NCBI GenBank assembly: GCA_037893245.1
Contig: JBAIAA010000412.1
Span: forward strand, 2,790,001-2,854,000
DNA from: Crossaster papposus
Lineage: Eukaryota; Echinodermata; Asteroidea; Velatida; Solasteridae
Direction of reading: 5' to 3'
DNA length: 64,000 bases
Shown: positions 2,198-44,634 of the stretch, one piece after another
How the letters are laid out: each line of letters opens with the position of its first letter
Position numbering within the stretch: the stretch's first letter is position 1
Notes under the pieces: model-generated
What the model saw: the letters and a program-made list of their open reading frames with translations, nothing else
Database searches by the model: none
What the model was told of the DNA's origin: nothing
Made by a program: the position numbers and the translations under genes

Positions 2198-3457
2198 TTA
2201 AAAGTCCCCACTCGTTTCTCGTGACGATGCCATGTACGGATCCAGCACTGCATACTCCGGCGTGGGCTGGTCCTGCAGGCCGACAACTGGCACCGAAGCG
2301 TACGCAGCCGTCGGTTGCACGGTGCCCGTCGACCTGTTGTCCCCCGTTGGTCCAGTGCCTTCACCGCATCGACTGGTCTCATCGTAGACATTCGCCGGGC
2401 ATTTACTGGTCTTGGTTCCGGGCGCCGCGGTATTAGCATACAAGTGGAAGTTAATGTCTCTCGATGCAACTACTCCATGTCTTCGTCGCTTCGCCTTCCT
2501 CCTCATGATGATAAATACACCGACGACAAGAAGCAAGACTGCGAGGCTGCTAGCGCCAGCTATTATTGCGAGGAGCATGGTGTTGGCTTGAGACTCAACG
2601 GGCAGCACTGTAGTTGTACTTGTAAGAGTTAGTGTTTGAGAAATTGCCCAAGTTTCACTTGTACTGTATGACACGCTGAGGTTGAAATTGTCGACGACTG
2701 TTACATCTGTTTCAGGTAAAGGGCTTACTGGCCCAAGGAAGCATATCTTTTCTATACCAGGACATGCCTCACTCCGCATGTAACACGTGAATATCGAGGT
2801 GTAGTAGGAACTGTCCACCGTGTTGAGATGTAAAACATTTTGAACTTGATCAGTTAAGATGGCGGTATCGTTTGAAAGTGATATCCGTGGTGAATTGTCG
2901 ACCGAGGTTGTCCACTCCAGAGAAACCACCGGGTCGGTTATTTCAGCTTCACATATAAAATCAGAAAGTAGCTGCGAATCTGGAAATGGCCAAGACCTCG
3001 TGCACTTTAGTTTTTCTGGAAATTTACCATCACACACGTTTACGTGTATGTCGTTGGACCGTGTCTGGTTGCCTGTCGACAGTACAACACCGCAGATAAA
3101 TGTCGTGCTGTCTGTAAAGTTGCTGTTATCAATAGTTAAAGTTAATGTTGCATCAACGGTTGTGTTTTTCTGATATATAACCCTCCCTCGACTGTCCGTT
3201 GTTTGGTTTTCGGCGCAAAAATAGTTAGAAAATAACTTACAGATTGAGGAGATATTCACCGAGGCATACGTGTTTCCCCCGCGGTACCATTCGACCCGAC
3301 TCACAAATTCACCGCTTTCAGTCTCGACGCGGCACGACAGTTCCAACGGCTCGCCTATTTCCACAGCCACTCTCTCAGTCGTAGGTGTGATTGTTAAGGA
3401 TGCCGCCATGTTTGCAGATACGAGAAACATCGAGAAGGCGAACACTAAAACCGCCAT
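2198..3457 (-). CDS. Two-Ig-domain receptor 1, truncated class B tail
   Basis: Predicted type I membrane protein of 419 aa in one exon. The start is the methionine at 3457 (MAVLVFAFSMFLVSA), chosen because it opens a signal peptide aligned with the other cluster members; upstream in-frame residues are not signal-like. Ig domain 1 has C42, EWYRG at 56-60 and C122, plus an extra Cys pair (C73, C81) shared by the family. Ig domain 2 has C169, LEWTT at 180-184 and C225. A Ser/Thr-rich stalk leads to a membrane helix at about 294-318, a basic stop-transfer stretch, and a tail with AAYASV (Y386) and EYAVLDP (Y402). The frame stops ten residues after YAVLDP with no clear splice donor, so the later tyrosine motifs of its relatives are absent. 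It is the only member on the minus strand. Ligand and signalling role are unknown. Confidence 0.85.
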   Translation of the reverse strand: MAVLVFAFSMFLVSANMAASLTITPTTERVAVEIGEPLELSCRVETESGEFVSRVEWYRGGNTYASVNISSICKLFSNYFCAENQTTDSRGRVIYQKNTTVDATLTLTIDNSNFTDSTTFICGVVLSTGNQTRSNDIHVNVCDGKFPEKLKCTRSWPFPDSQLLSDFICEAEITDPVVSLEWTTSVDNSPRISLSNDTAILTDQVQNVLHLNTVDSSYYTSIFTCYMRSEACPGIEKICFLGPVSPLPETDVTVVDNFNLSVSYSTSETWAISQTLTLTSTTTVLPVESQANTMLLAIIAGASSLAVLLLVVGVFIIMRRKAKRRRHGVVASRDINFHLYANTAAPGTKTSKCPANVYDETSRCGEGTGPTGDNRSTGTVQPTAAYASVPVVGLQDQPTPEYAVLDPYMASSRETSGDF

Positions 3458-12222: not shown

Positions 12223-14227
12223 ATGGCCAGAGAAGTAGTTATCATCTTACTCACTACAACAGTAATGAGTGTGACACATGGCGTGCTAATTGTCACTGCC
12301 CCGGGCCTCGTGACGGTTCGGAGAGGGGAACCATTGCAATTGTCATGTGACATCACCTTTGAAGCTGGTGATATTAGTATCAGGGCGGCTCGATGGTACC
12401 GAATGCAGGATTCGGGTTTACTATTCTACGGTTCAATTGATGTTTCAGGAGGCTGTGCGTCCGGAAACCGACCGTGTATTGGGAACACTACTGACAATCG
12501 TGGAACAGTACAATACGAAAGAGGCAGGTTTAACAGTGCAACATTAAAGCTTACAATCAATAAAAGTGTACTTGAGGACGACACTATGTTCCAATGCTTT
12601 GTTTTTAGTAGCAGTAGCGGTAGATCACATGCTGCACAAATATCGGTGACCATTAACTACTTCCCAAATGCAACCTACCCGTTGTGTTTTGTGTCTTCAT
12701 ACACCCCTGGACCACCCGTTTTACCTTCAATTCTGTCGTGCTCATCTGAATTAGCTAAGCCAACTGTTTCTCTTCTGTGGACAACTTCCGTCAGTTCAAC
12801 AGTCTTGACAGGGAGCTTAGGTGTTGTGGGCGATCAAATCGAAAACAATCTGCATTTAGACCCATCCTGGACCTACACTACCTATTTTTGTCACGTCTCA
12901 AGCGATGCCTTCCCAGGAATCGAAAGAAACTGCTCTGTCAGTATCGGACCACCAACTATCCCGATCGATCCCTCAGCAGGAGCGACAACTCACGACTTAC
13001 CTACTATCACAACTTCTTATATGTCAACTCGCCATTTTACTGACTCAAGTCCGACTCATTTAAACCCTTCCTCATTTAAAACAGCAACCATTGTGGTATC
13101 GTCTGCTGCAGGTGTTGTAATCATCATTCTCCTCGTCATCATAGTGTACCTCGTGTTGTCAAGGAGACAGGCAAGAAGGTGGAAGGATAGAGGAAGAAAC
13201 CAGCCGCCATCCTCTCCCACCATACAAGGTGGTGCCAGAGACGCAGGGCCAACCAATCGGGCACCGCCGTTACCGCTAGGCGCCTGTGCTGTACAAACCG
13301 TCGGCTCAGAGCAGCTTTCACCTCGGAGCACCTCACTGCAAGCTCTACCCAGCGACACAAGAGGCAGTACCAACTCCTTACACCACTCCTACGAAACCAG
13401 ATTCGGACGTACCGTAGCAGAGCTGCACCCACAGGAACCAGACCAGAGACAACGAGACCAGACTCCCGTAACCGGCAACACAGTCGAGCGACTGCAGCCC
13501 CAGTTTACAAAGAACGGATATACAGCGTACATCGTGGAGGATACTATAAACGGGAACCAGACTAACTCCAATACAGACTACATGCCGCTCTCACCTTATG
13601 AAGAAGGTAATCTGACTGGTTTCTTTGTTGGTCTGCTTGGTGTCAATGCCAACTCATTTTGCTTTCAACTTCAAATAATAGGTACATGTATACCTGTACC
13701 CAGGGTTGTAGTCGAGTCCCTGCAAGTCATTTCACAAGTCCTTTCGTGAAGCCAGTCACAAGTCCCTTCATAAAGGCAGTCACAAGTAACTAGATGAACA
13801 ATGCCAAAGGAATGCCTTTGTCAAAGCTGATTTGAATAGCTTGTGATTTGAATTGGAACTGAAGGACTTGTGATGGACTTGCAGGGACTTACAGGGACTT
13901 GCAGGGACTTGTGATGGACTCGACTACATCCCTGCATACCTAATTGTAGAAGTGCAAAAAGGCATCATCAATCAATTACAAGTTACGAGTTTATAGTTGA
14001 TGTTATAAAACTGCCAAACTGACACTGGGATTAAGCTATTAAATGTATGAATTGACTTTCTCAGTATCTGAGTTATCATGGGTATAAATGTAATGTATCT
14101 ATCGTCCCATGGTTTTCGATCTCTTTTTGTATACATGCATCACAAATACAACAAATGGTTTTCTCTTCTTTTTTTTACAGTCGGTAATGCTCCACCGTGT
14201 GACTATGAAAACCTCAACGAGCAGTGA
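12223..14227 (+). CDS. Two-Ig-domain receptor 2, class A tail (chimeric)
   Basis: Two exons, 12223-13606 and 14181-14227, joined in phase 1, give 476 aa. Signal peptide MAREVVIILLTTTVMSVTHG; Ig1 with C42, RWYRM and C125 plus the family's extra Cys pair (GGCASGNRPC); Ig2 with C173, LLWTTSV at 185-191 and C223; membrane helix about 289-313. The ectodomain is nearly the same as receptor 3, but the tail differs. After a short class B-like stretch (ARDAGPTNRAP, with ACAV where receptor 3 has AYAV) it switches to class A: GYTAYIV, then TDYMPLSPYEE. Splicing turns the last codon into Val, giving SPYEEV, an ITIM-type motif, followed by CDYENLNEQ with a Grb2-type YxN site. Reading on into the intron would instead give a longer, unrelated tail, which I regard as intron sequence. 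Inhibitory signalling is inferred from motifs only. Confidence 0.85.
13701..13934 (+). mobile_element. hAT-like MITE, copy 1 (intron of receptor 2)
   Basis: This 234-bp non-coding element starts CAGGGTTGTAGTCGAGTCC and ends in the complement of CAGGGATGTAGTCGAGTCC. The interior repeats ACTTGTGA / GGGACTTG. Its flanks do not show a clean 8-bp target duplication, unlike copies 2 and 3, so it is probably older. Confidence 0.8.
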
Positions 14228-18798: not shown

Positions 18799-21380
18799 AT
18801 GGCCAGAGAAGTAGTTCTCATCTTACTTACTACAGCAGTACTAACTGTGACAACCGGCGTGCGTGTCACTCCGTCAGGCACCGTGACTGTTCGGAGAGGG
18901 GAACCATTGCAAATGTCGTGTAACATTACATTTGAAGCTGGTGATGGTATCAAGGCGGCTCGATGGTACCGAATGCAGGATTCTGGTTTAATAATCTACG
19001 GTGCAATTAATGTTTCAGGAGGCTGTGCGTTCGGAAACCGACCGTGTATTGTTGGGAACACTATTGACAATCGTGGAACAGTACTATACGAAAGAGGCAT
19101 GTTTAACAGTGCAACATTAAAGCTTACAATCAATAAAAGTGTACTTGAGGACGACACTATGTTCCAATGCGTTGTTTTCAGGAGCAGTAGCGGTACTTCA
19201 CATGCTGCACAAATATCGGTGACCATTAACTACTTTCCAAATGCAACCTACCCGATGTGTTTCGTGTCTTCAAACACTCCCGGACCACCCGTTTTACCTT
19301 CAATTCTGTCGTGTTCGTCTGAGTTCGGTCAGCCAACTGTTTCCCTTCTGTGGACAACTTCCGTCAGTTCAACCGTCTTGGCAGGGAGCTCGGGTGTTGT
19401 GGGCAATCAAATCGAAAACAATCTGCATTTAGACCCATCCTGGACCTACACTACCTATTTTTGTCATATCTCAAGCGATGCCTTCCCAGGAATCGAAAGA
19501 AACTGCTCTGTCGATATCCGGCCACCCATCATCTTCACCGATTCCCCGTCAGTGTCGGCACCACATGACCCACCTACTACTCCAGATTCTTCGACGCCAA
19601 CTCCCCACTTTATTGACCCGAGTCTCACTGATTCAAACACTTTTTCGTTTAGTCCAGTAATAATCGCAGTATTGTCAGCTGTGGGCGGTGTGATCATCAT
19701 TCTCCTTGTCATCATATTATGCCTGGTGTCGTCAAGCAGGAAGGCAAGAAGGTGTGAGGATAGAGAGACAAACCTGCCGCTATCCACTCCCGTCACGCAA
19801 GGTGGCGAGGCCAGTAGGCAGGCAGCTAACATCTACGGCGATCAAACCTACTATCAACCTACAGACCTCGGACCTGGTGGAGGTAACACCAGAGATGCAG
19901 GGCCCATTGATCGGGCACCGCGGCCACCGCCGGAACCCATGGCCGAGGACTGCCGCGGCGCCTACGCGGTGACAACGGTAGTCTCGGGTCTGCCTCCACC
20001 GCCACCAGTGTACGCAGTCCTGGACCCTGACTCGCCATCGGATGACACATTGGGTGACTACTCGTACGCCACTGTGCAGAAGAGGACAGCGCTACCAGGG
20101 GATGGCAAACGAAAGCCAAATGGTGAGTACGTTGAGCTTCAGTTTCTAGATATAAACCAACTGGCAAAATTGAATGATTCGGGACATACCAACGACTCAC
20201 TATGATCCAGGGATGTAGTCGAGTCCATCACAAGTCCCTGCAAGTCCCCGCAAGTTCATCACAAGTCCCTCAGTTCCAATTCACATCACAAGCTATTCAA
20301 ATCAGCTTTGACAAAAGCATTTCTTTGTCATTGTTCATCCAGTTACTTGTGACTGCCTTTATGAAGGGACTTGTGACTGGCTTCACGAAAGGACTTGTGA
20401 ACAGACTTGCAAGGACTCGACTACAACCCTGCTCCCTGCTATGATCCATGTCATATCTGACGTTGGGCGACTCTTAAATGTCTCTTATTGACGACATTTC
20501 TCATCTCAGCCCGAAGCTTTCCGACACAGCTTTACCTAGTTTTGTCTGAGCTCTCCATGTCGCACGAGATTTGTCGTTGGAGATTTGCTAGTACTTGGTT
20601 GATACCAAAGATTGATACCATAGAAATATAAAGGTCCCGTGGGAAAAACGATCAACCTATGATATATGGCGAAATATAATTCGTGGGCAACTCATAATAA
20701 CTTGCATTAACCCTAACCCTAATGTGTAAAAACAATAACATTAATATTTGTGTATTTAATTGGTACTGTTAGGGTTCGTACATTTCGGCCCATTCTGTAT
20801 AATTGTTTAAGGTCAGTTTCTTGAACAAAACCTTGGGTGAAGGCAAACAAAATGCGCTAAAAGATTTTAGAATCTTTGGGAAGAACAGAGTACTTACCAG
20901 CGGCTTATGAAAAGTCCTTTTAAAACTTACACAGGATTAACATTTGCCTGTCGTTTTGTAATTCTTGGTCACTTCCTGGGTGGAACAAGTAGCTCGTTAA
21001 CCCTATTTATTTGGCGCTACATTACAATGTACTACACAATATGACACAATTCTCAAAGGCCAATGTAGTAAGAGTATACAGTTTATTCAAATAGTATTTT
21101 GTAGTATTAGGTAACGTTAGGGATACCGCGTGTGACAACAATGCCAAATGTTCACCATCTTTGTTTTTCAGTTGCAGACAAGCGGAGTACCACGGGAGCT
21201 TTCGCCGTTGTCGGGCAGATCCAACCCGGCGGCTCGTCTGGGCAACGCGGGGACGACATCGGGAACAACGGGGGTTACAAAGATGACAACAGCGACACAA
21301 TCTTCGTCGACAATATTCTGTATGTTGCTTCGTCTGATGATGCACTACAACTTAAGACCAGATATAGTGACGTCATTTAA
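18799..21380 (+). CDS. Two-Ig-domain receptor 3, class B tail
   Basis: Exons 18799-20122 and 21172-21380, phase-1 join, 510 aa. Signal peptide MAREVVLILLTTAVLTVTTG; Ig1 with RRGEPLQMSC, RWYRM and FQC, plus the extra pair GGCAFGNRPC; Ig2 with SCSSE, LLWTTSV and YFC; membrane helix about 287-311. The tail is class B: GAYAV (Y389), VYAVLDPD (Y405), DYSYATV (Y421, Y423), and the terminal exon adds DNILYVASSDD (Y492). Its ectodomain is almost a copy of receptor 2's, while the tail follows receptors 4, 5 and 6. The intron carries a hAT-like MITE. The start codon context is the same as in receptor 2. Function is inferred: a surface receptor with several SH2-binding-type tyrosines. Confidence 0.87.
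20208..20438 (-). mobile_element. hAT-like MITE, copy 2, with 8-bp target duplication
   Basis: This 231-bp element lies in the intron of receptor 3, in the opposite orientation to copies 1 and 3. Ends are CAGGGATGTAGTCGAGTCC and the complement of AGGGTTGTAGTCGAGTCC with a few extra bases. It is flanked by direct repeats CTATGATC at 20200-20207 and 20439-20446. An 8-bp duplication with CAGGG termini is typical of hAT transposons. It has no coding capacity. Confidence 0.88.
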
Positions 21381-27093: not shown

Positions 27094-29433
27094 ATGGCAG
27101 CTTTAGTATTTGTCTTTCGTCTGGTTATGGTAGCCGTGGTAACGTCTGTAACAGTTTCGGCTGCAGAAGCGGTGAGCGTAAACAGTGGAGATTCGTTACA
27201 TATATCGTGTGGTGTCTGGTATGAAGATGATACTGAAGTGTATGGAGTTCGATGGTTCAGAGAGGCAGATCAATTATCATATTATGGTGAAATCTTTATT
27301 TCAACAACTTGTGCGCAAACGATTTGTCCCGTAGCAAACACTACTGACAATCGTGGGATAGTCCGATACGAAAGAGGTACGAGTAACAATGCAACGCTGT
27401 CACTGACGATCGGTGCCAGTACATTAGAAGACAACAGAGAATTCTTGTGTGTATTCTTTGTAAAAAGAATAGACAATAGTCTATACCCGTACAGTTCCGA
27501 AACCATATCTGTGAGTGTGATTTACCCTCCAGATGAAATCTACCCAGCGTGTCATGTGTCAAGTCATCTTGTACTGACTTGCTCTTCTGGGATAACTCAT
27601 CCTGTGGTTACCCTGGAGTGGACAACCTCAATCAACTCATCAAGGATATCACTCTCAAGTGATACAGTCATCGCCGGGAATCAAGTTAAGAACATTCTCC
27701 ATCTCGACGCCCTCGGGATTCCTTATGAGAGTAAGATATTCACTTGTATCATGACGACGGAGGCTAACCCCGTCTTCGAAAGAAGTTGCTCAACCGGGCA
27801 AATCACCGTTCCGTCGGCTCCAGCGACTGCAGGTACGCAAGCCACCCAAGCCCTAATGAGCACTGCAAGAACAACTGAAACACCGAGTACTGCCGCAGCC
27901 CCATCCACTCCAAGAAATATAAACACCGGGGCCTTTCAGACTTCTAGAAGCACCTCTCAGCAAGGAGAAACACGGAACCGGCCTAGTTCTCCAGGCATAA
28001 CAGCCTCCAGACCCACTCAGTACCCAAAACTGTCCTTTCCCACAACCGACAGTACTCCAGGCACAACAGCATCCGAACCCACTCGAGTACCAGAAACGCC
28101 CCCCACCACAACCGGCATCCTTTCCTCAGCATGGCTACCCACGACTTCCCCATCGACGGAATCTGGGCCGAATAGTCCAACCGAGACTTCCACTAGACAT
28201 CAGACTACAATGAGTCCATCTGATGAAAGAACGCCTTCCATAATGTCGACAGACCCTTCCCTCTCACTCGCTCATACTTTGCTCGTCTCAGTATCTGCTG
28301 CATCCGGTGGAGCCATCATATTTCTACTCGTCGTCGTAGCTTGCCTAGTCTCCAAGAGGAAGGCAAACAAGCGAGATGCGAGAAATATGGGCATGCCCAT
28401 GGCCACAATATCGGAAACGGAGGAGACCGGTGGCCTGGCAACTTGTGTATACGGCCATGAATACGATGACTGGCAAAACATTCGAAGAGTAGGCGATAAT
28501 CGCGATGACACAATGTGGGATAACGGACCGACGAGTCCCGTGCAGTCAGTGGCCGCGTACGCTGTGTCTCCCCTGCTGGGCTTAGACTTACTGCTGCAAC
28601 CGCCACCGGCTGTGTACGCGGTGCTAAATCCAGACAACTCATCGGAGAAGACAGCTAGCGATGAGGACTCGTACGCCTGCGTTGTTGAGCAGAAGATGAA
28701 CAGACGAGACTCGAGTGAGGATGCGGGAATGGATGATGGAGCGAAACTTGGACGCGGCGGTGAGCAAACTCTTCTATATAGGTTATAAGCAAACGGGTTA
28801 TAAAAAACGAAACGCAAGCCCTTATCATTAATCGGACTTGTCGCGTATAGGTGTTAGATCTCACAACTCGCCACAAATCTTGGTGTAACTACGGTTCCTC
28901 GTTCAGTTATAGAGGCTAGAACTCGAGATCAGTGTATTGGCGAATCTTCAGAATGCGGGATTTCAGCCCAACCGGCGTGGTTGCCGAGTTTTTTGTCCTA
29001 GCCCCCGACTCTGGGGAAAAGTAGGAACACTCGTTAGGTTCGACATGAAAACAGTAAAAGTCACATGCACCCAGCTGGCCCCGTAGTCAGCGGGGTGCAA
29101 GTGCAATTGGTCAAACTAGATGGTGGTTTATATATATATTTTCTTCATTAATAACCTGATCTTCTCCGTCCCACAGCACCACTGCCCCCAGATCCCAAAG
29201 GCGAGGAGATGACCGCGGTCTACGCCGAGATTGGAGAATGCTCCACGGCGAGACCCTCTGTGTCACCTTGTCTAGGCAACGGAGGCGACAGCGACAGCGA
29301 CAGGGGGTTCGTGGACAACGCCCTGTACGTGGCGTCGTCGGACGATGCCATCGTCAACGATCAAAGATTAGCTAACCGTGAGCTCGTCGCCCCGAAGAAG
29401 GTCAAAGGGAAGCCCAGACTGGATCCGTTCTAA
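27094..29433 (+). CDS. Two-Ig-domain receptor 5, mucin-like stalk, class B tail
   Basis: Exons 27094-28759 and 29177-29433, phase-1 join, 640 aa, the longest member. Signal peptide MAALVFVFRLVMVAVVTSVTVSA; Ig1: ISCGV, RWFRE, FLCVF, extra pair TTCAQTIC; Ig2: LTCSSG, LEWTTSI, FTCIM. Residues about 230-390 are a Ser/Thr/Pro-rich stalk with imperfect repeats (TTDSTPGTTASEPTRVPE-like), which should be heavily O-glycosylated. Membrane helix about 395-420. The tail has AAYAVSPL, VYAVLNPD and DSYACV; the terminal exon adds VYAEIG, ALYVASSDD and ends KGKPRLDPF, the same C-terminus as receptor 9. The long stalk sets it apart; its relatives have about 40-90 residues there. Confidence 0.87.
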
Positions 29434-31426: not shown

Positions 31427-34107
31427 ATGATCGGTATAATTCACCTGGTTCTAATAATGGCCGCGAGCTTTAATGTCACGACGCCAGCAAGCACCCAGCC
31501 CGAGTCTTCCTCGGTCACCGTCCGCAGAGGTGAGCCGTTACGACTGTCCTGCGACATATACATCCCGCCCGGTGAAACTATAGTTGGGAGCTTTTGGATT
31601 CGCAATGAAGATTACTTAGATCCGTACGACACAGTGAACGTTTCCACCTGTCGGCCCGAGATCCAAACAGATGTCCCACCTCCACCATGCGCTATAAGTA
31701 GGACCATAGACTATCGGGGGCGAGTGGTTTACATATACAAGACAAATGCAACGGCGACAACGACGCTGACGATCGATGACAGCTCGTCGGAGGACAACAC
31801 GACATTCCGCTGCGCTGTCGAAAAGCAAGAAGGTGGCAGACAGCAGTCCGAGCAGATACATGTGACCGTTTACTACCTCCCCAACGCAACCTCTCCAATC
31901 TGCGCATCTTCGAACTTCGAATCTTCGAACTCAGAAGTCCCGGGATTACCGTCTAATTTAACGTGTTCGGCTGGGGAATCGCAACCTAGCGTGTCTCTGG
32001 AGTGGATAGCAGTTGATGAAGACTCGAATAGAATTTCTCTCTCGAACCTCTCGGTAGTGATTCAGGATAGAGTGGAAAACACGTTGGATCTGACGATACT
32101 CAAGATCCCTGTCCACGACCTGGTATTCACCTGTTTCATGACGAGTCGGGCGTATCCAGAGTTTCGCAGTAACTGTTCCACTGGGCCGTTCGTCATCCCA
32201 ACGACTGAAACCACGATAGCATCTACTTTTACAACTCTCTCAAAGGTAACAGATCAGCCAGTCTCTCGGCTGAGCGGAATCACAGTCATCGCAGCAACGG
32301 CTGGCGGTGGTGCTGCCTTTTTCATCCTGATCCTCATCATTGTATGCGTTGTCTCGTCAAGGAAGAACAAGACGCGACGTGGAACCGCCGCCCAATCCCG
32401 AACCACCGTTTTCGGCCGGCAGCTAAGTGATACCGCCCGCATGGCAACCATGGCGCCCGATTACGAGAGCCAAGAACGTGTCTCTCTTCCTGCCAACTGC
32501 AGAAGAGCGAAAGCCAACACACCAAGCGATGAGGCGGGTTCAGCAGCTCTCGTGTATGCCTACGCGTCGGTGACACCGGGCTACCGCCAACCAACCTCGC
32601 CGCCGTTGTACGCCGTACTGGACCCAGACGTGCCGTCGGAGGCGATAAGCGCCAGCTATGCGTACGCAAGTGTCGAGAAGGTGGCGGGACATCGACAGGA
32701 TTGGAGCGAGGACGCGGCATCGGACTTGAGTTGGGACGACGACGATCCACAAGGTAAACAAAAACAGTTACCTGTGTTATTTAGGTGCCTAAATAATTGT
32801 TAAAAATACGTTCAAAATAATTGGCCAATTAGCCAATAGCGTCATCGGCGGTGTCTTGTTGGTCGCCCCGTTTGAGGCCTTTTCCCCCATCTTGTGCCAG
32901 TATAAAACATCAGAAATGAATGAAAAATAAATTGTTTAAAAACGTATTGAGTCCCCTCTAGAAAACTAGCCACTTGGCTTTCCCGTCCCCTTCAAATTGG
33001 AGAACACTTAGCCAGTGATAGAAACGCGAGGAGGGATCGTAGAATGGAACCTCGTAGGGTTCGATAAAACTCAATCAAAATGGCAATCCAGGGAGGTAGT
33101 ATGACAGATAGGTGATATGATTGTGCCTTTGGTGATACAAGCATGGAATTTGGCACACAGTCAGAGTATGTATTGAGACAAAAATTGGCCGTAGGGCCAT
33201 CGCAGATTTGTCCTTTGAAGAAATATAGGGCCTTTTCGAAACCGTTGCTTCGTCTTTGGCTTTGGCTTCGCCTCCGAATTCCGAAATACTGAGAAGCAAA
33301 TAGAAATGGAAGAAAATTGAAATAGTCTAACTTTTGGGTTCACATCAATCGAGTGAATGTTTCTGAAGTACAACAGGCGTCAGAATGTGGCTGGAGATCT
33401 TGCAGTTGGGAGTCAAAAAATCGCCTTAAACCAAAGACGAAGACGAAGCCAGGGATTCGAAAAGGCCCTATGGTAGATTAACAAGCAATGGCAGCTATTA
33501 TTGAACATTTAAAATATTGCTTGTTATTCTACCTGTGAACATTTCCCCTATCTGGGGCCAATTTCATAGAGCTGCTAAGCACAAAAATTTGCTTAGCACC
33601 AACAAGTCTTGCTTATTAAAAACAGGTTACCAGTCACAATTCTACGCATTTTTCATTCTAAGCCAAAAACCAGCTGATTATCAATCGAAAACAATAAAGA
33701 TCACGTGAAAATTTGGTCAGTAACCTTGTTTTTGCCAAGGACAAATTTTCATGCTAAGCAAATTTGTGTCCTTAGCAGCTCTATGAAATTGGCCCCTGAT
33801 CTACTAACGCTTTTATGCTAGATAACAGCAGAAGTGGATAAGTACCATAAAAAAACAACCCATGTCCCCATTTGAAGCTTGTCGTTTGTCATCTTTCACC
33901 AATCCTTTCGAAATACCTTTTCTCGCAGATAATCACGAACTACCAGGAACAAAGGTCGGTTTAACGTACCGCGAAATGAAACAATCCGAATGCGGTGGAG
34001 CCGGAGACAACGACAGTGATACTGTCTTGGTGGACAATGTCTTATACGTACCGTCTACCGATGACGTCATCCTTCAGGCAAAGTTCAAGGGGCAGCCGAT
34101 GGTTTGA
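31427..34107 (+). CDS. Two-Ig-domain receptor 6, class B tail
   Basis: Exons 31427-32753 and 33929-34107, phase-1 join, 501 aa. Short signal peptide MIGIIHLVLIMAASFNVTT; Ig1: RRGEPLRLSC, then FWIRN where relatives have WYRG, FRC, and extra pair STCRPEIQTDVPPPPC with a longer loop; Ig2: LTCSAG, LEWIAV, FTCFM; membrane helix about 286-310. The tail has ALVYAYASV, LYAVLDPD and SYAYASVEK. The terminal exon adds LTYREM (a YxxM, PI3-kinase-type site) and DNVLYVPSTDD and ends KFKGQPMV. The intron contains two inverted-repeat elements (33226-33470 and 33554-33796). The terminal exon is the left edge of a tandem duplication that also carries receptor 7. Confidence 0.86.
33060..33225. repeat. Dispersed repeat shared with 44210-44300
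   Basis: GGTGATACAAGCATGGAATT and flanking sequence match, in reverse complement, the stretch at about 44240-44300 in the last intron of receptor 9. Family unknown. Confidence 0.55.
33226..33470. mobile_element. Short inverted-repeat element (TAGGGCCTTTTCGAA ends)
   Basis: The ends are TAGGGCCTTTTCGAAACC and its near-complement, with inner GCTTCGTCTTTGG and its complement. The 245-bp element is non-coding and lies in the receptor 6 intron. Confidence 0.7.
33554..33796. mobile_element. Short inverted-repeat element (GGGGCCAATTTCATAGAGC ends)
   Basis: GGGGCCAATTTCATAGAGCT at the left is repeated as its complement at the right. The inner part has CTAAGCA and TTGCTTAGCA words that also extend the pairing. 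A possible relative lies near 6470-6570. Non-coding MITE in the receptor 6 intron. Confidence 0.75.
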
Positions 34108-34600
34108 TCACGTGTTAACTGTCACGTGGATTACAGCTTCATTTTGGGCCTTCTTGTACCTTGAACAAGCTCCTTAAAAAAAAACCCAATTCTTTTCGAT
34201 AGCTGAAAATACATTTGTGTGCGCTTTGTACCAAATGGTATCCGCTTCAATGAACTTAAAAGCATGTGTAAACAAAATTGGAATGAGGAAACTCTACAAT
34301 GTATAGAAAAGTATATATACACAAAATAGTGAATACAGACAACATGTACTAAATAACTGTATAGTTACCTGGTATTGGATTGAATGTAACGTGTTGGATG
34401 GCGCAGAAATGGCTTAATATGTTGTTCAATTGTCCATCTGTAAAGCGATATTTATAAAGAAAACGACGAAGTGACAACTTCAAGCAAATTTGAACTGTTG
34501 GATGACTGAAAACAAAACCGTTTTTGCTATAGCTATTCGTCAAATGTATCGCACCGACAAGAAAGCCACCCACTAGTCCTAGCGGATAACTTGAACAAAG

Positions 34601-35992
34601 ATGGCGATCGTCGTATTTCTCTGTGCAGCACTGCTTGTTTCGGCTTTTACCACGACTTCGTCGTTTACGATCACACCTACGGTGGATGCAGTGACCGTAC
34701 GGCGAGGTGAACAGTTACAGATGTCGTGTGTCGTTGTTCCTGAAGCGGGGGACACTTCTCCAGCCGACAAGGTTCGATGGTACCGTGGGTCAGACACATC
34801 TCCCTATGGAGTCATGGATGATGTGTCATCATGTGGCTTCGTCGGCTTTCCATGTTCGAACCCCAGCACAACGGATAATCGTGGAATTTTAAGTTACACA
34901 GTTAGAGAAAACACCAGAACAATGACGCTAACGATTGCCAGTAGCCTGTTGGAAGACAACACTTCTTTTCGCTGTGCCGTTATCAAGGGCACACAAAAAT
35001 CGGCACTAATATCCGTAACTGTGTATTATCTTCCAAATACAACCTACCCAGACTGCACAGCATCTGGGACCCCACCGTATGTTCTATTTTGCTTATCTGA
35101 GATAACCCAACCAGTGGTTTCTCTGGAGTGGACAACCTTGGTCGTCCGGAGATCACTCTCGAACAATACAGTCATCGTCGGGAATCAAATTGAAAACGCC
35201 CTGTATCTCCATGCAGTGGATGCTTCCTACAATAACTCGATATTCACCTGCCACATGACCAGCGAGGCCTACCCTAGCTTTAACAGAAGCTGCTCCGTCG
35301 GACCCGTCGACATGTTCCCTACGGTTACATCCCAAGCTGTCAGCACAAACACACCGACCACTGAAAGCACTTCCACAGCCATTCGAACATCCCTAGACCT
35401 CCGTACTTCCAAGCCCACTGAGAATTTAACACCCGAGCAGAGCTCATTAGGAAGTCTTGTCTCGGCCGCTTCAACTACCAGGGAAGCCAGGTCAATTGAT
35501 CAAACCACAACTGCTACTTTTACCCAAACTGTTTTTGCCACCGACCTTATTCCCGACCCTTCCAGCAACACAACTGTCATAGCAATCTCATCAATTAGCG
35601 TCGTCGTCGTCACAGTTCTTTTGATCATCATAGCTTACCAAGTCGCATCGAAGAGGAAGTTACAGAAGCAGTCCAGGAAAAAACAGCCATCTTTGCAAGA
35701 AGACACCCAGCGGCAGCAACCTGGTGGAATCTCATTAGAAACTGTCGCCCACGATGAGCCAGGAACCAGCAATACCAACTCGTCCCTCGACCCAAGCCAC
35801 GCCTATGAGACCTCCATCATGGGAAACAGCAGAGCCATACCAGCCACTGCCCCGGACCAAAGCCCCATGAAACCCCAACAACCAGGCACCAACGATGGCT
35901 ATACTCCGTACATCGTACCGAGAGAGACCGGTGCCACTAACGCTGATGCTGACACTGGCTACATGCCACTATCTTTTTACGAACAAATTTGA
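34601..35992 (+). CDS. Two-Ig-domain receptor 7, class A tail
   Basis: One exon, 463 aa, closed by a stop with no terminal exon needed. Signal peptide MAIVVFLCAALLVSAFTTTS, preceded by AAAG before ATGG, a good start context. Ig1: RRGEQLQMSC, RWYRGS, FRC, extra pair SSCGFVGFPC, then TTDNRG; Ig2: LFCLSE, LEWTTLV, FTCHM; Thr/Ser-rich stalk of about 90 residues; membrane helix about 324-348; basic KRKLQKQSRKK. The tail has HAYETS, GYTPYIV, and the closely spaced TGYMPLSFYEQI: TxYxxL (ITSM-like) followed two residues later by SxYxxI (ITIM). This suggests an inhibitory or adaptor-recruiting receptor; that role is inferred from motifs only. Confidence 0.88.
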   Translation: MAIVVFLCAALLVSAFTTTSSFTITPTVDAVTVRRGEQLQMSCVVVPEAGDTSPADKVRWYRGSDTSPYGVMDDVSSCGFVGFPCSNPSTTDNRGILSYTVRENTRTMTLTIASSLLEDNTSFRCAVIKGTQKSALISVTVYYLPNTTYPDCTASGTPPYVLFCLSEITQPVVSLEWTTLVVRRSLSNNTVIVGNQIENALYLHAVDASYNNSIFTCHMTSEAYPSFNRSCSVGPVDMFPTVTSQAVSTNTPTTESTSTAIRTSLDLRTSKPTENLTPEQSSLGSLVSAASTTREARSIDQTTTATFTQTVFATDLIPDPSSNTTVIAISSISVVVVTVLLIIIAYQVASKRKLQKQSRKKQPSLQEDTQRQQPGGISLETVAHDEPGTSNTNSSLDPSHAYETSIMGNSRAIPATAPDQSPMKPQQPGTNDGYTPYIVPRETGATNADADTGYMPLSFYEQI

Positions 35993-36790: not shown

Positions 36791-37516
36791 GTCTACCATA
36801 TCTCAAACTGTAATTTCTTCTCATTGTCTTCTTTGTATATAGCTTTCTTCAGGCTTAAGCTACAGTGCCTCGGTAATATTTGAGGAATACTTGGTTTTAT
36901 TACCAGAAAGAAACAATAAATAAGTTGTTCTTTTTCAAATGAGCAGTTTTGTGTGCTTTGTACACCGCCGGTTTTTGAGAGCAGATGAAGGGCAAGAGAG
37001 GAAGAAGACGATAGACAAAAACATAACAATTCTCATTGATCCGCGATTATAAACAAACCCCGGTTAAATTATGATTTAAATAAATTACACTTAGAAAAAG
37101 TTGTATACTTTTTGGTACACCAATGGCTGTTTTTTTGCAAAGAATGAAATATGAAGAATGAAATAAAATAAAGAATGAAATGAAATAAAGAATGAAATGA
37201 AAAAAATTAAATGAAAAATGAAAAATGAAAAAATTAACAAGTGGAAGGATGGACAAATGAAAAAAAAGAACAAATGAACAAATGCGACAAGGCCTTTATG
37301 TTCTGTTCTTCAAACGGACATAAAATTAAACCTCTACTTTTTAATGTGTGTAACGTATTTCAACGTTCAATGCGAATTATTACGTCCATTCCACCTCAAA
37401 ACACTACTTTCATTTTGCATGTAGTGTGATGCTGCATATTGCTTGGAAGATTATAACATTTTATTTTGATTTTGTTTTCAAATCTGAGGTCGCACTGAAT
37501 TATGTTTCACCCCCAG

Positions 37517-37611
37517 ACAGTGATACTATCTTGATGGACAATGTCTTATACGTCCCGTCTACCGATGACGTCATCCTTCAGGCAAAGTTCAAGGGGCAGC
37601 CGATGATTTGA
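37517..37611 (+). pseudogene. Orphan terminal exon of a class B receptor
   Basis: Copy of the last exon of receptor 6, moved by the tandem duplication. A plausible acceptor (CACCCCCAG) precedes it and a phase-1 join would read DSDTILMDNVLYVPSTDD and end KFKGQPMI. No class B main exon lies directly upstream; the nearest is receptor 7, which ends in its own stop. The frame is intact, so it could be a silent relic or an alternative last exon spliced from receptor 6. Confidence 0.7.
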
Positions 37612-38118: not shown

Positions 38119-39471
38119 ATGGCGATCGTCGTATTTCTCTGTGCAGCACTGCTTGTTTCAGCTTTTACCACGACTTCGTCGTTTACGATCACACCTACAG
38201 CTGATGCAGTGACCGTACGGCGAGGTGAACAGTTGCAGATGTCGTGTTTCGTTGGTCGTGAAGCTTGGGACACTTATCCAGCCGACGAGGTTCGATGGTA
38301 CCGTGGGCCAGGCACACCTCCCTATGGAGTCATTGATGTGTCATTTTGTGCCGTCCCCAGCTTATGTTTGAAAACCAACACAACGGATAATCGTGGAATT
38401 TTAACTTACACAATTGCCGATAACACCGAAACATCGACGCTAACAATTGCCAGTAGCCTGTTGGAAGACAACACTACTTTTCGCTGTGCCGTTGTTAAGG
38501 GCACACAAACATCGGCACTAATATCCGTAACCGTTTATTATCTTCCAAATAGAACTTATCCAGAATGCACGGCATCTGGGACCCCACCGTATGTTCTATT
38601 TTGCTTATCTGAGATAACCCAGCCACTGGTTTCCCTGGAGTGGACAACCTCGGTCGTCAGGAGATCACTCTCAAACAATACAGTCATCGTCGGGGATCAA
38701 ATTGAAAACGCCCTGTATCTCCATGCAGTGGATGCTTCCTACAATAACTTGATATTCACCTGCCACATGACGAGTGAGGCCTATCCTGACTTCGATAGAA
38801 CCTGCTCCGTCGGACCAGTCGCCATCTTCCCTACGGTTACATCCCAAGCTGTCAGCACGAACACACAAGCTACTGGAAGCCAGGAGACACCCATGGTCAC
38901 ACCCCAAGCTACAGATACAGGAACGAGAATTAGTACAACCACTACCACCACCACTAGTCGTGTCTCGGCCCCTTTAACTTTCAGGGAAACCATGTCAATT
39001 GATCAAACCACAACTTCCACTGACTCTGTTCCCGACCCTACCAACAACACCGCTGTCATTACAATCTCATCAATTAGTGTCGTCGTCGTCACAGTTCTTC
39101 TGATCATCATAGCTTACCAAGTCGCATCAAAGAGGAAGTTACAGAAGCAGTTCAGAAAGAACCAGCCATCTTTGCAAGAAGACACCCAGCGGCAGCAACC
39201 TGGTGGAATCTCATTAGAAACTGTCGTCCACGATGAGCCAGGAACCAGCAATACCAACTCGTCCCTCGGCACAAGCCATGCCTATGAGACCTCCATCGTG
39301 GGAAACAGCAGAGCCGTACCAGCTACTGCCCCGGACCAAAGCCCCATGAAACCCCAACAACCAGGCACCAACGATGGCTATACTCCGTACATCGTACCGA
39401 GAGAGATCGGCGCCACTAACACTGATGCTGACACTGGCTACATGCCACTATCTATTTACGAACAAATTTGA
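38119..39471 (+). CDS. Two-Ig-domain receptor 8, class A tail
   Basis: One exon, 450 aa, tandem copy of receptor 7. Signal peptide identical. Ig1 has MSCFVG, RWYRGP, FRC and extra pair SFCAVPSLC, and differs from receptor 7 at many positions; Ig2 and tail are nearly the same. The stalk contains TTTTTTTS and differs in length, and shares ATGSQETPMVTPQATDTGTR-type sequence with receptor 9 rather than receptor 7. Membrane helix about 311-335. The tail ends GYTPYIV, then TGYMPLSIYEQI: the same TxYxxL plus SxYxxI pair. Confidence 0.88.
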   Translation: MAIVVFLCAALLVSAFTTTSSFTITPTADAVTVRRGEQLQMSCFVGREAWDTYPADEVRWYRGPGTPPYGVIDVSFCAVPSLCLKTNTTDNRGILTYTIADNTETSTLTIASSLLEDNTTFRCAVVKGTQTSALISVTVYYLPNRTYPECTASGTPPYVLFCLSEITQPLVSLEWTTSVVRRSLSNNTVIVGDQIENALYLHAVDASYNNLIFTCHMTSEAYPDFDRTCSVGPVAIFPTVTSQAVSTNTQATGSQETPMVTPQATDTGTRISTTTTTTTSRVSAPLTFRETMSIDQTTTSTDSVPDPTNNTAVITISSISVVVVTVLLIIIAYQVASKRKLQKQFRKNQPSLQEDTQRQQPGGISLETVVHDEPGTSNTNSSLGTSHAYETSIVGNSRAVPATAPDQSPMKPQQPGTNDGYTPYIVPREIGATNTDADTGYMPLSIYEQI

Positions 39472-39628: not shown

Positions 39629-39821
39629 GCTCGGTTCAGACAAGCGTTCCACAGTCGCGCCGAACCAAATTGAAATCGAGTCGCTCCTGAGTCGCTCTAA
39701 CAACTCCAGCAGTCGATCGTTCATTGTCAGGCGCGCCTTGTTTCCCTTATTCGTTTGAGACGTCGGACTCAATTCACTCGTTTGGTTCGGCGCGACTGTG
39801 GAACGACTGTCTGAACCGAGC
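39629..39821. mobile_element. Short inverted-repeat element, unit 2 copy
   Basis: Tandem-duplication partner of the element at 36147-36339, with the same ends and a few substitutions. Confidence 0.75.
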
Positions 39822-39917
39822 GTAAGTTTGGTTTTGTTTGGAAGGGGGAAATCGAAGAAACAAACCATAATATGCCAAAACTTTGGTTTAACAAGAGGGT
39901 ACATTTTCCAACTTATA

Positions 39918-40250
39918 TTTGGTAGTCAGGTTGGGGCAGTGGTTGATACTGCCGTCGCTTTCCACCGCTGTTGCCCGGGTTCGATTCATGTCCCATAGGG
40001 CATGGCGGCGGTACATGCACGTCGGCCAGTAAAAACATAACGTCAGAACGTGTATCTTCACCTGCAATACCATTCAGCACCCCAGACTCTAGAACTATAT
40101 TCAGTTTTATAAATATGGGTCTGGGATTGAGACACGGAGACTTGAGAAGTTCCCGGATGTCCACGCTCGTCTATTCCACCCCGTGGCCCGGTTCGATTCA
40201 TGGCTCATTGGGTTTTTAGTCCCTGTCTGATTCCGTGGGCGTTTTCCTAC
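39918..40250 (+). mobile_element. tRNA-derived SINE, unit 2 copy
   Basis: Partner of the SINE at 36441-36790, with the B-box GGGTTCGATTC near 39978 and the second CGGTTCGATTCATGGC. It lacks a short segment at the 3' end that unit 1 has. Confidence 0.6.
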
Positions 40251-40970
40251 CACATCTCAAACTGTAATTTCTTCTTATTGTCTTCTCTGTATATAGCTTT
40301 CTTCAGGTTTAAGCTACAGTACCTCGATAATATTTGAGGAATACTTGGTTTTATTACCAGAAAGAAACAATAAATAAGTTGTTCTTTTTCAAATGAGCAG
40401 TTTTGTGTGCTTTGTATATCGCCAGTTTTTGGGAGCAGAGGAAGGGCAAGGAAGGAATGAGACGATGGACTAAAATCTGTTTAATTCTCATTGATCAGCG
40501 ATTATAAACAAACTGCCCGGTTCAATTATATTTTAAATAAATTATACTATTAGAAAAGTTGTATATGTTTTGGTACACCAATTTTTCTTTATTTGCAAAG
40601 AATGAAATATAAAGAATGAAATGAAATAAAGAATGAAATTAAAATAATTAAATTAAAAATTAAAAACAAAAAATTAAAAATTAAGCAAATGGAAGGAGGG
40701 ACAAATAAACAAAAAATGAACAATTGAACAAATGCGACAGAGCCTTTATGTTCTGTTCTTCAAACGGACATAAACCTCTACTTTTTAATGTGTGTTACGT
40801 AATTCAACGTTCAATGTGAATTATTACGTCCACTTCACCTAAAAACACTACTTACATTTTGCATGTAATGCGATGCTGCATATTGCTTGGAAGATTGGAC
40901 CATTTTATTTTGATTGTGTTTTCGGATCTGACGTCGCACTGAATTATGTTCTACCCCTAGACACTACATG

Positions 40971-41692
40971 CAGAAACAAACGCTAATTTACAGCACAGTC
41001 CGGCACCTGACTATTCCTAATGTTCATGCAAGAGTTTTGAACAAATATGCAAAATGATCCCGGAAAATCCCCCGCAATACCAGGGCGGTTTGTATGGGGC
41101 TTTAATGTTGTAACCGTCAAACTTTTGTCATGAACTCTTGTTTCACTCTATTTACACAATTAAAGAAAAAGAGTGGTTACCGTTTGTATTTTTTTCGACA
41201 GTGTTTCGGTTCAATTCTTTTAAGGTTACCTTCCTGTTCAGGTTAGCCAAGCCTCTTGCGGAAATACAGTTTGTTTATTGAGAACTGAATCTCTGCATTG
41301 CGCTGTGTGGGCAAAATAAAAAACGGTTCAGTGAACTTGAAAGCGTGTGTCGAGAATGGAATGAGGAAACTCTATAACAATGTATATAGGCAAGTACAAA
41401 CGTGTAGACAAATATGACAGAATCAATAATAATCTGCAGCGCACCGCTGTATGATATTGGTGTTAATCGTGGAATTCGACTCCCACGCCAGTATTACAAA
41501 GTTTACTGTTTCGTGTAAGTCCAAGTGTAAAGCAACGTGTAAAGAGTACAACAGAGTAAAAACCACGTAAACACTTCAGTAGAACTGTTGGGTGACTAAG
41601 ATGATGTTCTTGTCGTTGTTCATTCAGTAGACTGAATGTTCATGATTGTGTATGGTCCCTCAAGGAAATCCCTCACCGATATTTGAACAAAG
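40971..41692. other. Spacer upstream of receptor 9
   Basis: No gene. From about 41330 it is recognisably related to the flank upstream of receptors 7 and 8 (GGAATGAGGAAACT and GTACAAACGTGTAGA), more diverged than those two are from each other. Confidence 0.55.
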
Positions 41693-44634
41693 ATGGCGAT
41701 CGTCGTATTTCTCTGTGCAGCACTGCTTGTTTCAGCTTTTACCACGACTTCGTCGATTACGATCACACCTACAGCTGATGCAGTGACCGTACGGCGAGGT
41801 GAACAGCTGCAGATGTCGTGTGTCGTTGGCATTGAAGCCGGGGACACTTCTCCAGACAAGGTTCGATGGTTCCGTGGGTCAGACACATCTACCTATGGAG
41901 TCATGGATGTGTCATCGTGTGGCCTCGTCGGCTCACCATGTGTGAACCCAAGCACAACGGATAATCGTGGAATTTTAAGTTATACAGTTACCACTGAAAA
42001 CACCGGAATAATGACGCTAACGATTGCCAGTAGCCTGTTGGAAGACAACACTACTTTTCGCTGTGCCGTTATAAGGGGCTCACAAAAATCGGCACTAATA
42101 TCCGTAACCGTATATTATCTTCCAAATACAACCTACCCAGACTGCACGATATCTGGGACCCCACCGTCTGTTCTACTTTGCTCATCTGAGATAACCCAAC
42201 CGGTGGTTTCTCTGGAGTGGACAACTTCGGTCGTCAGGAGATCACTCTCGAACGATACAGTCATCGTCGGGAATCAAGTTGAAAACGCCCTGTATCTACA
42301 TGCAGTGGATGCCACCTACAATAACTCTATATTCACCTGCCACATGACCAGCGAGGCCTATCCTGACTTTAACAGAAGCTGCTCCGTCGGACCTGTCGCC
42401 ATCTTTCCAACACCCGATCTCACGACTACATTCCAAGCTGTTGACACAAGCAGACAAGCTACTAAAAGCCAGGAGACACCCGTGGTCGCACCCCAAGCTA
42501 CAGATACAGGAACGAGAATCAATGCTACCACTGGCACTCTCCTTACCACCGACGGTTATACATCTCAGTCAAACGGCTCATATGACACCACCTCTTTTCA
42601 AAGTTCCAGTTCACCGTCTCAAGAAAATCCTACCTCCCCGGCCACTGTAACACTCAATATCATAATAGTTGCTTCAGCAGGAGCCGCTGTGGCTGTCATA
42701 GTTCTGATTCTCTTAATCATCATGGCGTGTCTCGTTGCATCCAGACGAAGAGCTAAGAAGAACAGATCTAGTGGAGACGACACGAGTTTTATCTACGAAA
42801 ATCACGGAGTCGTTGGCGATCAAACCACCGACCACGCAGAAAACAGGTATGGCAACATCCCGCTACACGACGTCGGACCCTCCGGACCACCACCTCCGCC
42901 TACCCACAACTTTGCTCCGTTGATGGTTGGCGCGGCTCCTCCCGAATACGCCGAGGTTACACCCCGCAACAAACGGCGACCACCACCGCCTGAGTACGCC
43001 GTGCTCAACCCGGAGGGCAACGAACCGTCGCCGGAGATTGCACCCGATGGGTACGCGTATCCCTTTGGTAAGCGGGCTGATGATGAGAACGAAGGTGCAT
43101 CTACATCGTCAGATGACGAAGATGGAAAAGTGGATCAAGATTGGCAAGGTATAGATACATGTAGTATGTTGTTTATAAGTTACATGTATTTATTAAACTT
43201 CCTAACTTTTTATACTTGTGGAGACAAACGGGGAAGTTCCAGACCAATCAAAAGCAAACATTAACTTATGGTCACTGCTAAGTTGTATTCGAGTCCCTGC
43301 AAGTCCATCACAAATTCTTCAGTCTCAAGTCAGCCACTAGCTGCTTAAATATACTGTTAACACAAGCATTCCATTGTCATGGTTCAACCAGTTACTTGCA
43401 ACTGGCTTTATGAAAGAACTTGTGACTGGACTTGTGACTGGACTTGTGACTGGACTTGTGACTGGACTTGTGACTGGACTTGTGACTGGACTTGTGACTG
43501 GACTTGTGAAAGGACTTGAAGGGACGCGAATTCAACTTTTCAGAAGAAAATTAATTGTGTTCTCATTTGCTTTAAAGGACACCTCTTTTTCACATCTCGA
43601 GTCGAACGGTATATAACTTCGTTACTCCTTGCTCGGTTGACCACAATTAAGTAACACCTCACAATTCTGTTTAGTTTTTCTCAGCCACTTTTATCGTACA
43701 CTGAATACGATCGTTATTTGTTTTGTAATCACACGTGAAGAGACCCCGGATGTTGGAGGTCAGGAGGTTGCCGTCATTTACGCCCAACCCAAAAAGGTCA
43801 ACAAGCCACAACCAGTCGGCTCATCACCGAGAGACAACGATGAGCATATCGAGGAAGGTAGGAAAGTCTGACATGAATTGTTGATGTTTCATATAATATT
43901 CAACATAATAGAATAATTATAAAAAGACCGCATTTCCTATTTTTAGCAAAGCAAGTGTACGCAACATGTGTAGTCTTCAGTTAGGCAGATTAGGGGAAAT
44001 ATTTAGGGGAATTGTGTCTTTGATTAAGCAAGCATGAACATTTGGCATGTCGTGAGAAAGATATTTGGAAATGGGGCCATGGCTGATTTGTATGGGTATA
44101 GAATAGCAAGCAATTTTCAAAATTTTCAAAATGGCTGCCATTGCTTGTTATACATGTATTTGTTTTCAAAGGACTTTTCTGCAATGGCTGTGTTCAATGT
44201 ATATCTAAATATGTTTATCATGACATGCTCTGATGACTTCCAAATTCCACGCTTGTATCATCAAAGGCACAGTTTCATTACCTATCTGCCGTACTAACTA
44301 CCATTTTCTCACGATTGTACTCGACAAAGGTGCCGACTCGCTTCAAAACATGGCGGCTCCGGATCCGTACCCAGATTTAGGCTATGCCGAAGTTGGAGCG
44401 TCGCTTATACCAGACTTGCCAAGTTTGGAACGTCGGGATACCGACAGGGTTAACTACGGAAAGCCCAAAGGTGAATACCAGGAACTTGACGACAATAAAT
44501 CGGTGGATAGCATCCTGTTTTTGGCTTCACCAGATGATGGCGTGTTCGTTGAGAAGAATGTCGGCGACACTGACTCCATCACTCCCATCAAGAAGAAGAA
44601 GGGAAAAGGCAAACCACGACTTGATCCATTTTAA
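41693..44634 (+). CDS. Two-Ig-domain receptor 9, class B tail with extra exon
   Basis: Three exons, 41693-43148, 43741-43857 and 44330-44634, all phase-1 joins, 625 aa. The ectodomain is that of receptors 7 and 8 (same signal peptide, RRGEQLQMSC, RWFRGS, SSCGLVGSPC, TTDNRG; Ig2 LLCSSE, LEWTTSV, FTCHM). Membrane helix about 321-348. The tail, however, is class B: EYAEVTP (Y419), EYAVLNPE (Y435) and YAYPFG. The middle exon adds VIYAQPKK, and the last exon LGYAEVG (an ITIM match), EYQELDD and a variant of the terminal motif (VDSILFLASPDD, with Phe replacing Tyr), ending KGKPRLDPF like receptor 5. The first intron carries a hAT-like MITE with an expanded 12-bp repeat. The acceptor of the last exon is weak (GACAAAG), but frame and homology support it. 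Confidence 0.85.
43279..43537 (-). mobile_element. hAT-like MITE, copy 4, with internal 12-bp tandem repeats
   Basis: Degenerate member of the CAGGG...GTAGTCGAGTCC family; left GTATTCGAGTCCCTGCAAGT, right the complement with several changes. At 43419-43502 the 12-bp unit CTTGTGACTGGA is repeated seven times perfectly, an expansion not seen in the other copies. It lies in the first intron of receptor 9. The open frame across the repeat (LVTGLVTG) is a by-product. Confidence 0.8.

Follow-up and report, generated by a model that had tools for sequence, protein, structure and literature searches.

Control of natural killer (NK) cells and myeloid cells in vertebrates rests on paired activating and inhibitory receptors, and we know of no such pairs outside chordates and cnidarians. 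The Alr genes of Hydractinia have an established role in allorecognition, and the VCBP of amphioxus are secreted proteins with V-type immunoglobulin (Ig) domains in an invertebrate deuterostome. According to the excerpts of published papers on which we draw here and below, primate CD300A/C combine gene conversion of the ectodomain with divergence of the tail (PMC12447643); Hydractinia Alr are candidate allorecognition genes of the Ig superfamily (IgSF) with motifs of the ITIM or ITAM (immunoreceptor tyrosine-based inhibitory or activation motif) type (cited in PMC12065747); the fester co-receptors (FcoR) of Botryllus have a V-type Ig domain and long tails with an ITIM, a hemITAM or a core YxxI/L/V (PMC12065747); and amphioxus VCBP carry chitin-binding modules (PMC13428168). 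We have analysed a 64,000-nucleotide stretch (the window; C412:2790001-2854000) of the 1.02 Gb genome of the sea star Crossaster papposus, which contains nine tandem receptor genes, R1 to R9. There is good support for these genes being mosaics whose ectodomains have been homogenised, and with a probability of roughly 0.68 they belong to a sea-star-lineage paired-receptor system, analogous to CD300, SIRP and LILR and independently built on a B7/nectin-like V-C ectodomain.

All nine are long open reading frames (ORFs) of 452-583 codons, the first on the minus strand and the other eight on the plus strand (Table 1), and each encodes in order a signal peptide, two Ig domains (V-like, D1, then C-like, D2), a Thr/Ser/Pro stalk, one membrane helix and a tyrosine-rich tail (5-10 tyrosines each). 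An earlier note, made from the sequence alone, had recognised nine kindred tandem receptors of this build, in agreement with the ORFs, with BLASTP (every pair aligns, E 1e-28 or better) and with the 40 alignment columns that are invariant across the nine. The signature words that it listed are common without being universal: only R4, R7 and R8 (3/9) have RWYRG unchanged, and R1 has VEIGEPLELSC for RRGEPLQLSC. Searched with the R4 ectodomain, the whole genome returns exactly the nine at E <= 6.7e-38, the next match following at 4.2e-10; they do form one cluster, as proposed, but more distant genes of similar build are present elsewhere in the genome.

The main point, missed by the earlier note, is that ectodomain and tail have separate histories. 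Type A tails (R1, R3, R4, R5, R6 and R9) contain xYAVL[DN]P-like motifs, and type B tails (R2, R7 and R8) contain GYTxYIV...YMPLSxYE. R7 and R9 are 100% identical in the signal peptide, 88% in D1, 89% in D2, 41% in the transmembrane (TM) helix and 27% in the tail, and for R2 and R3 the values are 83% in D1, 89% in D2, 59% in the TM helix and 37% in the tail. Synonymous divergence (dS) between R7 and R9 is 0.14-0.16 in the Ig domains and saturated in TM and tail; DNA similarity starts 10 nt before the ATG (with a weak short stretch upstream) and ends 14 nt past D2, with none in stalk, TM or tail. Since the shared part and the differing tail lie within one exon, splicing is ruled out as an explanation. 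The ectodomain tree rejects the B-tailed R2, R7 and R8 as a clade (p-AU, the approximately unbiased test, 4e-61), and the tail tree rejects both R2 with R3 (1e-36) and R7 with R8 and R9 (0.02); long-branch warnings accompany all of the trees, including those of the C6b group below. In the alignment the R2 tail keeps a worn type A stretch that has lost its tyrosines (ACAV for AYAV, SLQAL for VYAVL), and the similarity that hhalign detects between A and B tails corresponds to this degenerate part of R2.

Ig genes are mostly built as one exon per domain; here the receptor up to the tail is one long exon in all nine genes. Exon 1 ends in a GT donor in six (R2-R6 and R9), always in phase 1, and in four of these six (R3, R5, R6, R9) it can be joined in frame to a second exon, which has a D[NS]xL[YF] motif, several acceptors being possible; exon 2 of R2 and of R4 was not found. 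R7 and R8 have a stop codon inside exon 1, as does R1, in which no splice donor was seen. Coordinate 44634, at which the earlier note had ended the cluster, proves to be the end of the R9 second exon, and similar exons belong to R3, R5 and R6, with a relic at 37516-37611.

The same arrangement recurs outside the window. Two genome queries, with the best-matching candidates scored, gave 53 places at E <= 1e-3, of which 44 are outside the window (a hand union in which the two fragments on C474 count once; the weakest of them, with E near 1e-3, could belong to other Ig genes, and haplotype copies may account for some short contigs), and only one row of these matches has an internal stop. Stretches fetched from C6 contain 12 receptor ORFs, 11 of them in four ectodomain groups, and two tail types, X and Y, are present in 4/4 groups. 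The X tails have YM[ED]LQ-type elements and are mostly shorter, and the Y tails are for the most part longer, 3/5 having YADLxL and YAxV/I close to the end. The best X-Y pair of each group is 80-95% identical in the ectodomain (dS 0.05-0.27) and 18-26% in the tail. For example, the ectodomain of Y gene 464907 resembles that of X gene 462124 (dS 0.27) and its tail that of Y gene 467828 (dS 0.35, as against 0.92 for the ectodomain), and the X-Y pair 462124 and 467828 is 54% identical in the ectodomain. At C110 (17 kb read) ORFs 1041343 and 1043949 have a common YMEL-x8-YTEL tail, and 1038871 joins a similar ectodomain to a different tail. Seven ectodomain groups therefore have two tails (R2/R3, R7-R9, four at C6 and one at C110), and in 9 of 11 tail-switched pairs, which are not independent because they are drawn from these seven groups, DNA similarity breaks off 0-54 nt past D2; in same-tail pairs compared alongside, it reaches the 3' flank in 4/4. 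The simplest cause of the mosaics would be recurrent gene conversion or unequal crossing-over, mostly ending at the end of D2. Long simple peptide repeats, (TPPA)n and (PIT)n, occur in the stalks of ORFs C110:1028001-1029794 (L047) and C6:462124 (L030).

Comparisons with other sea stars separate the two histories further. The closest database proteins are uncharacterised, from Patiria miniata, Asterias rubens, A. amurensis and Acanthaster planci. Identities to Patiria models are 61% for R6 (P0001), 54% for R5 (P0002), 57% for R3 (second half of P0006) and 61% for R2 (first half), such that P0006 reads as a fused model of the Patiria counterparts of R2 and R3. The R2 and R3 ectodomains are sisters with respect to the Patiria R3 counterpart (99/98), and the R2 tail is 69% identical to the Patiria R2 tail but only 37% to that of its window neighbour R3. 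In A. amurensis, P0037/P0038 (Y) and P0039-P0041 (X) share 72-77% identity in the ectodomain and 19-24% in the tail, and P0010 and P0008, of the window family, 70% in D1, 88% in D2 and 24% in the tail. When the C6b group and the A. amurensis genes are placed together, the ectodomain tree groups X and Y genes by species (window genome 100/100, Asterias 97/98), and within Asterias one Y and one X gene are sisters (96/95), whereas the tail tree groups them by type (100/99). Uniting the Y genes on ectodomains is rejected (4e-31), as is uniting the three window-genome tails (0.001). In both groups tested across species (R2/R3 with Patiria, C6b with A. amurensis), ectodomains are thus homogenised within species, whereas tails remain distinct and are conserved from one species to the other. 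We note separately that Patiria models P0006 and P0036 read as fusions of neighbouring receptors with different tail types, so that annotation of the family is unreliable, and that assignment of the Asterias P0008 tail to type B was dropped, with no BLAST or hhalign support.

These data bear on a simpler history, in which tandem duplicates had their tails replaced once each by segment capture and no homogenisation is ongoing. Upstream similarity covers 1.3 kb in some pairs (655544-659999 and 1038871-1041343), as in ordinary duplication. The X tails are, however, homologous across ectodomain groups and species, and the clustering of X and Y ectodomains by species in Asterias and the window genome needs repeated homogenisation, leaving single capture highly improbable.

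Amino acids change faster in the V-like domain than in D2. For D1 the pooled pN/pS (ratio of nonsynonymous to synonymous differences, from hand sums) is about 1.0, for D2 0.38, using 7 of 15 pairs, one per ectodomain group, that were picked by hand after the table had been seen; the nonsynonymous share differs between D1 and D2 with a Fisher odds ratio of 2.6 (p 3e-6, from rounded hand-added counts at sites that are not independent). Single pairs vary, the 471117 group having high dN in D2 as well.

Tail motifs suggest how paired members might signal. The X type has an ITAM-like element, YMEL-x8-11-YxxL/P, and the ITAM consensus Yxx[LI]-x6-12-Yxx[LI] is present in 5/6 C6 X tails and 0/5 Y tails (chance by shuffling 0.2-1.9% per C6 X tail, some tails being near copies); it also occurs in three C110 ORFs, C551, P0004, P0008, P0011 and R4. 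A pair YA[DE]LxL-x17-20-YAx[VI], which resembles a tandem ITIM/ITSM (the S denoting switch), is found in eight Y tails (three from the window genome, two from A. amurensis, two that are isoforms of a single Acanthaster gene, and one unnamed) and is also readable in the fused Patiria model P0036. The type A motifs YAVLDP/YASV are SHP-like at +1 and +3, mostly with Pro at -2; between A and B, the inhibitory tail of the window would perhaps be A. The Y tails of C6:455463, 476953 and 655544 have YADLNL/YADLHL/YAELDL, which we take to resemble the SIRP-alpha tail motif. Strict ITIM as a general tail feature was dropped, only R4, R7 and R8 of the window meeting the pattern, and the Asterias tails weaken the case for defining X by a strict ITAM.

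We propose that each ectodomain group with two tails would be a set of paired receptors, the members of which may bind the same ligand class through the V-like domain. X tails (C6, C110; ITAM-like) could recruit Src/Syk-type kinases or adaptors, and Y tails (perhaps window A) SH2 phosphatases; coelomocytes would integrate both signals in the recognition of pathogens or allogeneic cells. According to excerpts of one study, transcripts for Syk, Csk and Src-family kinases are present in Patiria eggs (PMC11593052). Opposite signs of signalling, action in coelomocytes, the ligands and an immune role are what we infer from sequence, and a self/non-self or pathogen receptor, as the earlier note suggested, fits insofar as shared ectodomains with different tails, homogenisation and faster V-like change are those of immune paired receptors, the function itself being conjectural.

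Several observations weigh against this reading. Of the Patiria counterpart of R2, only the part from the last 19 D2 residues onward is known. Within the window, R1, R4, R5 and R6 lack a close ectodomain partner and are unpaired; C6:450482 (group C6a) also lacks one and was left out of the pair counts, and in that set of ORFs, which has eight more outside C6, the partner comparison covers the 12 at C6. Similarity continues past D2 for 278 nt in R2-R3 and 123 nt in R8-R9, and 462124-464907 resemble each other again over a stretch of the 3' flank. The pooled dN/dS of D1, at about 1, is not clearly >1. The window B tails are without the ITAM consensus, whereas the type A tail of R4 meets it, and strict ITIM occurs in only 3/9 window tails (R4, R7, R8), two of them type B. 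The Asterias X tails having the element read YM[EG]L-x9-Y[MT]EP and fail strict ITAM because the second half ends in P (YMEP/YTEP); YxxP suggests Crk-type adaptors. The YADLxL...YAxV/I pair is in only 3/5 C6 Y tails, and hhalign finds no relation of A or B to X or Y (nor, neutrally, of X to Y). Finally, the TM helices of the nine have no charged residue, and they therefore include no adaptor-type activating form.

The fold places the receptors without naming a family. A model of the R4 ectodomain (predicted local distance difference test, pLDDT, 84) has a V-like plus C-like fold as in B7, butyrophilin and nectin; B7-H6, PD-L1, butyrophilin and nectin rank nearest among the chains listed. Foldseek and VIA-align rows are mostly V-C proteins and antibody light chains, from which no membership was drawn. 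Pfam gives only generic families (V-set, ig, Ig_2, Ig_3, I-set, C2-set_2) for the nine and ten C6 genes, as do PDB profiles; among the nine, an Ig family reaches its gathering score only in R1 and R6, and the matches of the remaining seven are sub-threshold (V-set, ig, Ig_2, Ig_3, I-set). PDB profile matches are weak and mixed V-set (Sidestep E 6.5e-5, nectin-3 1e-4, BTN2A1 1e-3, T-cell receptor (TCR) alpha 2e-3). Matches to RIFIN, Stevor, ASFV_J13L, Orf78, RCR, TMEM154 and similar were dismissed, as they are below the cut-off and on TM or low-complexity parts. Two further invariant Cys flank D2 in the nine, and a self-made Cys-pair pattern is present in 7/9 window genes, 17/20 genome ORFs and 39/43 database proteins. 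No sequence orthology to CD300, SIRP, LILR or KIR was found (PDB profiles with weak V-set matches only, and word-based protein searches).

Nectins, DIP-gamma and Sidestep are among the matches by fold or by weak sequence similarity, and tandem copies readily undergo conversion. The receptors could be cell-adhesion or guidance proteins (nectin/DIP/Side-like) that make homophilic or heterophilic contacts in development or nerve and whose tails have diversified between cell types, with the mosaics reflecting only neutral conversion. Neutral conversion would not, however, be expected to end near D2 in 9/11 pairs, nor to hold two tail types in seven ectodomain groups, and the V-like domain changes faster than D2. 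The named relatives are also only sea stars, unlike those of conserved adhesion genes: in three protein searches 4/5 (with only the best 7993 candidates by shared words scored), 8/9 and, for the C6 query, 27/33 matches were named, all from sea stars. These searches need shared 5-residue words, and more distant relatives in other animals are therefore possible. We consider an adhesion or guidance role unlikely. The earlier note could not link the family to a named invertebrate immune family, and as far as tested this tandem IgSF family does lie outside all named invertebrate families; no paper on it was among the literature matches listed (largely open literature). The best explanation is that the nine form a single cluster within a superfamily of type I V-C membrane receptors of the sea-star lineage.

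More specifically, the cluster could be a histocompatibility locus of sea stars, comparable to Hydractinia ARC or Botryllus fuhc and variable between haplotypes in its ectodomains. Adult Patiria pectinifera coelomocytes are reported to react against allogeneic cells (PMC9763293, in excerpt), and Hydractinia Alr and Botryllus FcoR have ITIM/ITAM-type tails (PMC12065747). R2, R3, R5 and R6, however, each have a distinct best match in Patiria, indicating slower turnover than a polymorphic locus suggests, and such a locus is quite improbable. The paired-receptor reading, if true, would represent an independent origin of paired-receptor logic, with ectodomains copied across tails within single exons, and would supply concrete candidates for coelomocyte responses to disease and for sea-star allorecognition, for which PMC9763293 names no receptor in the parts available (the word receptor is absent from its main text on P. 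pectinifera coelomocyte allorecognition). A wider proposal, that an independent genome-wide repertoire of kinase- and phosphatase-recruiting V-C receptor pairs, shaped by single-exon conversion, lies behind sea-star allorecognition and coelomocyte activation, is tentative, and we would sooner doubt than accept it. As their layout is that known from vertebrate paired immune receptors, the nine are candidate immune or self-recognition receptors of sea stars.

Table 1. Features of the window (position 1 is its first nucleotide).
Feature	Coordinates	Strand	Remarks
R1	2198..3457	-	Receptor, type A tail, stop in exon 1
R2 exon 1	12223..13606	+	Receptor, type B tail, phase-1 donor at 13606
R3 exon 1	18799..20122	+	Receptor, type A tail
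R3 exon 2	21172..21380	+	DNILYVASSDD tail end; predicted acceptor, one of several possible
R4 exon 1	22701..24015	+	Receptor, type A tail; ectodomain used for structure model
R5 exon 1	27094..28759	+	Receptor with long stalk and type A tail; Patiria P0002 matches it best
R5 exon 2	29192..29433	+	C-terminal KGKPRLDPF; predicted acceptor, one of several possible
R6 exon 1	31427..32753	+	Receptor, type A tail; Patiria P0001 matches it best
R6 exon 2	33929..34107	+	Predicted acceptor, one of several possible
R7	34601..35992	+	Receptor, type B tail, stop in exon 1
R7 tract	34591..35322	+	91% identical to R9 41683-42411
R6 exon 2 relic	37516..37611	+	Relic of exon end, between R7 and R8
R8	38119..39471	+	Receptor, type B tail; tandem duplicate of R7, V-like domain more divergent
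R9 exon 1	41693..43148	+	Receptor, type A tail, R7/R8-like ectodomain, phase-1 donor
R9 tract	41683..42411	+	In common with R7
R9 exon 2	44267..44634	+	C-terminal KGKPRLDPF; 5' end uncertain
Methyltransferase exon	7501-7920, perhaps 5453-8881	-	FkbM-type (Methyltransf_21), between R1 and R2
44/88-bp repeats	16561-17019		Between R2 and R3
12-bp minisatellite	43418-43518		Directly after R9 exon 1; similar sequence after R3
Jagunal-family membrane protein	48091-48717	+	Pfam E 2e-9
Probable retroelement ORF	51306-52118	-	Downstream of cluster; sub-threshold reverse-transcriptase match (RVT_1 E 3e-4)
Oxidoreductase exons	56864-58582	-	Pyridine nucleotide-disulphide type (Pyr_redox_2, Rubredoxin_C); probably PYROXD1

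The R6 exon 2 relic lies between R7 and R8 because the R7 block (34012-37519) was duplicated to 37516-40963. The ORFs 5453-6469 and 8585-8881 beside the methyltransferase exon have no Pfam match, and neither a tRNA nor an Rfam match at gathering score occurs in the window.

Among the described systems, amphioxus VCBP share V-type Ig domains with the nine, which differ in being membrane-bound with a TM helix and tail and have no chitin-binding match in Pfam. B7, butyrophilin and nectin share the fold, which alone gives no family name, and differ by an identity of 12-19% in the listed rows and by the extra Cys around the sea-star D2. The Hydractinia Alr are alike by description only, as IgSF genes with ITIM/ITAM-type motifs, in a cnidarian; allorecognition is established for them and a mere possibility for the sea-star receptors. 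Botryllus FcoR, as excerpted, are alike in being an invertebrate deuterostome family with V-type Ig and motif-bearing long tails, but add a sushi domain and two C2 Ig domains to the V domain, where the sea-star receptors have two Ig domains and, in Pfam scans of the nine and ten C6 genes, no sushi domain. Unlike vertebrate paired receptors, the sea-star genes encode the V-C ectodomain in one exon, have tyrosines in both tail types and, in the nine, an uncharged TM helix. The comparison with LILR, KIR, CD300 and SIRP suggested in the earlier note is nonetheless apt for the mode of evolution: the sea-star tails resemble those of vertebrate paired receptors in YADLxL-type motifs, as in the SIRP tail, and CD300A/C, SIRP, PILR, KIR, LILR and FcR-like likewise have clustered genes and near-identical ectodomains with different tails. 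The between-species pattern in sea stars is that of primate CD300A/C, as excerpted (PMC12447643).

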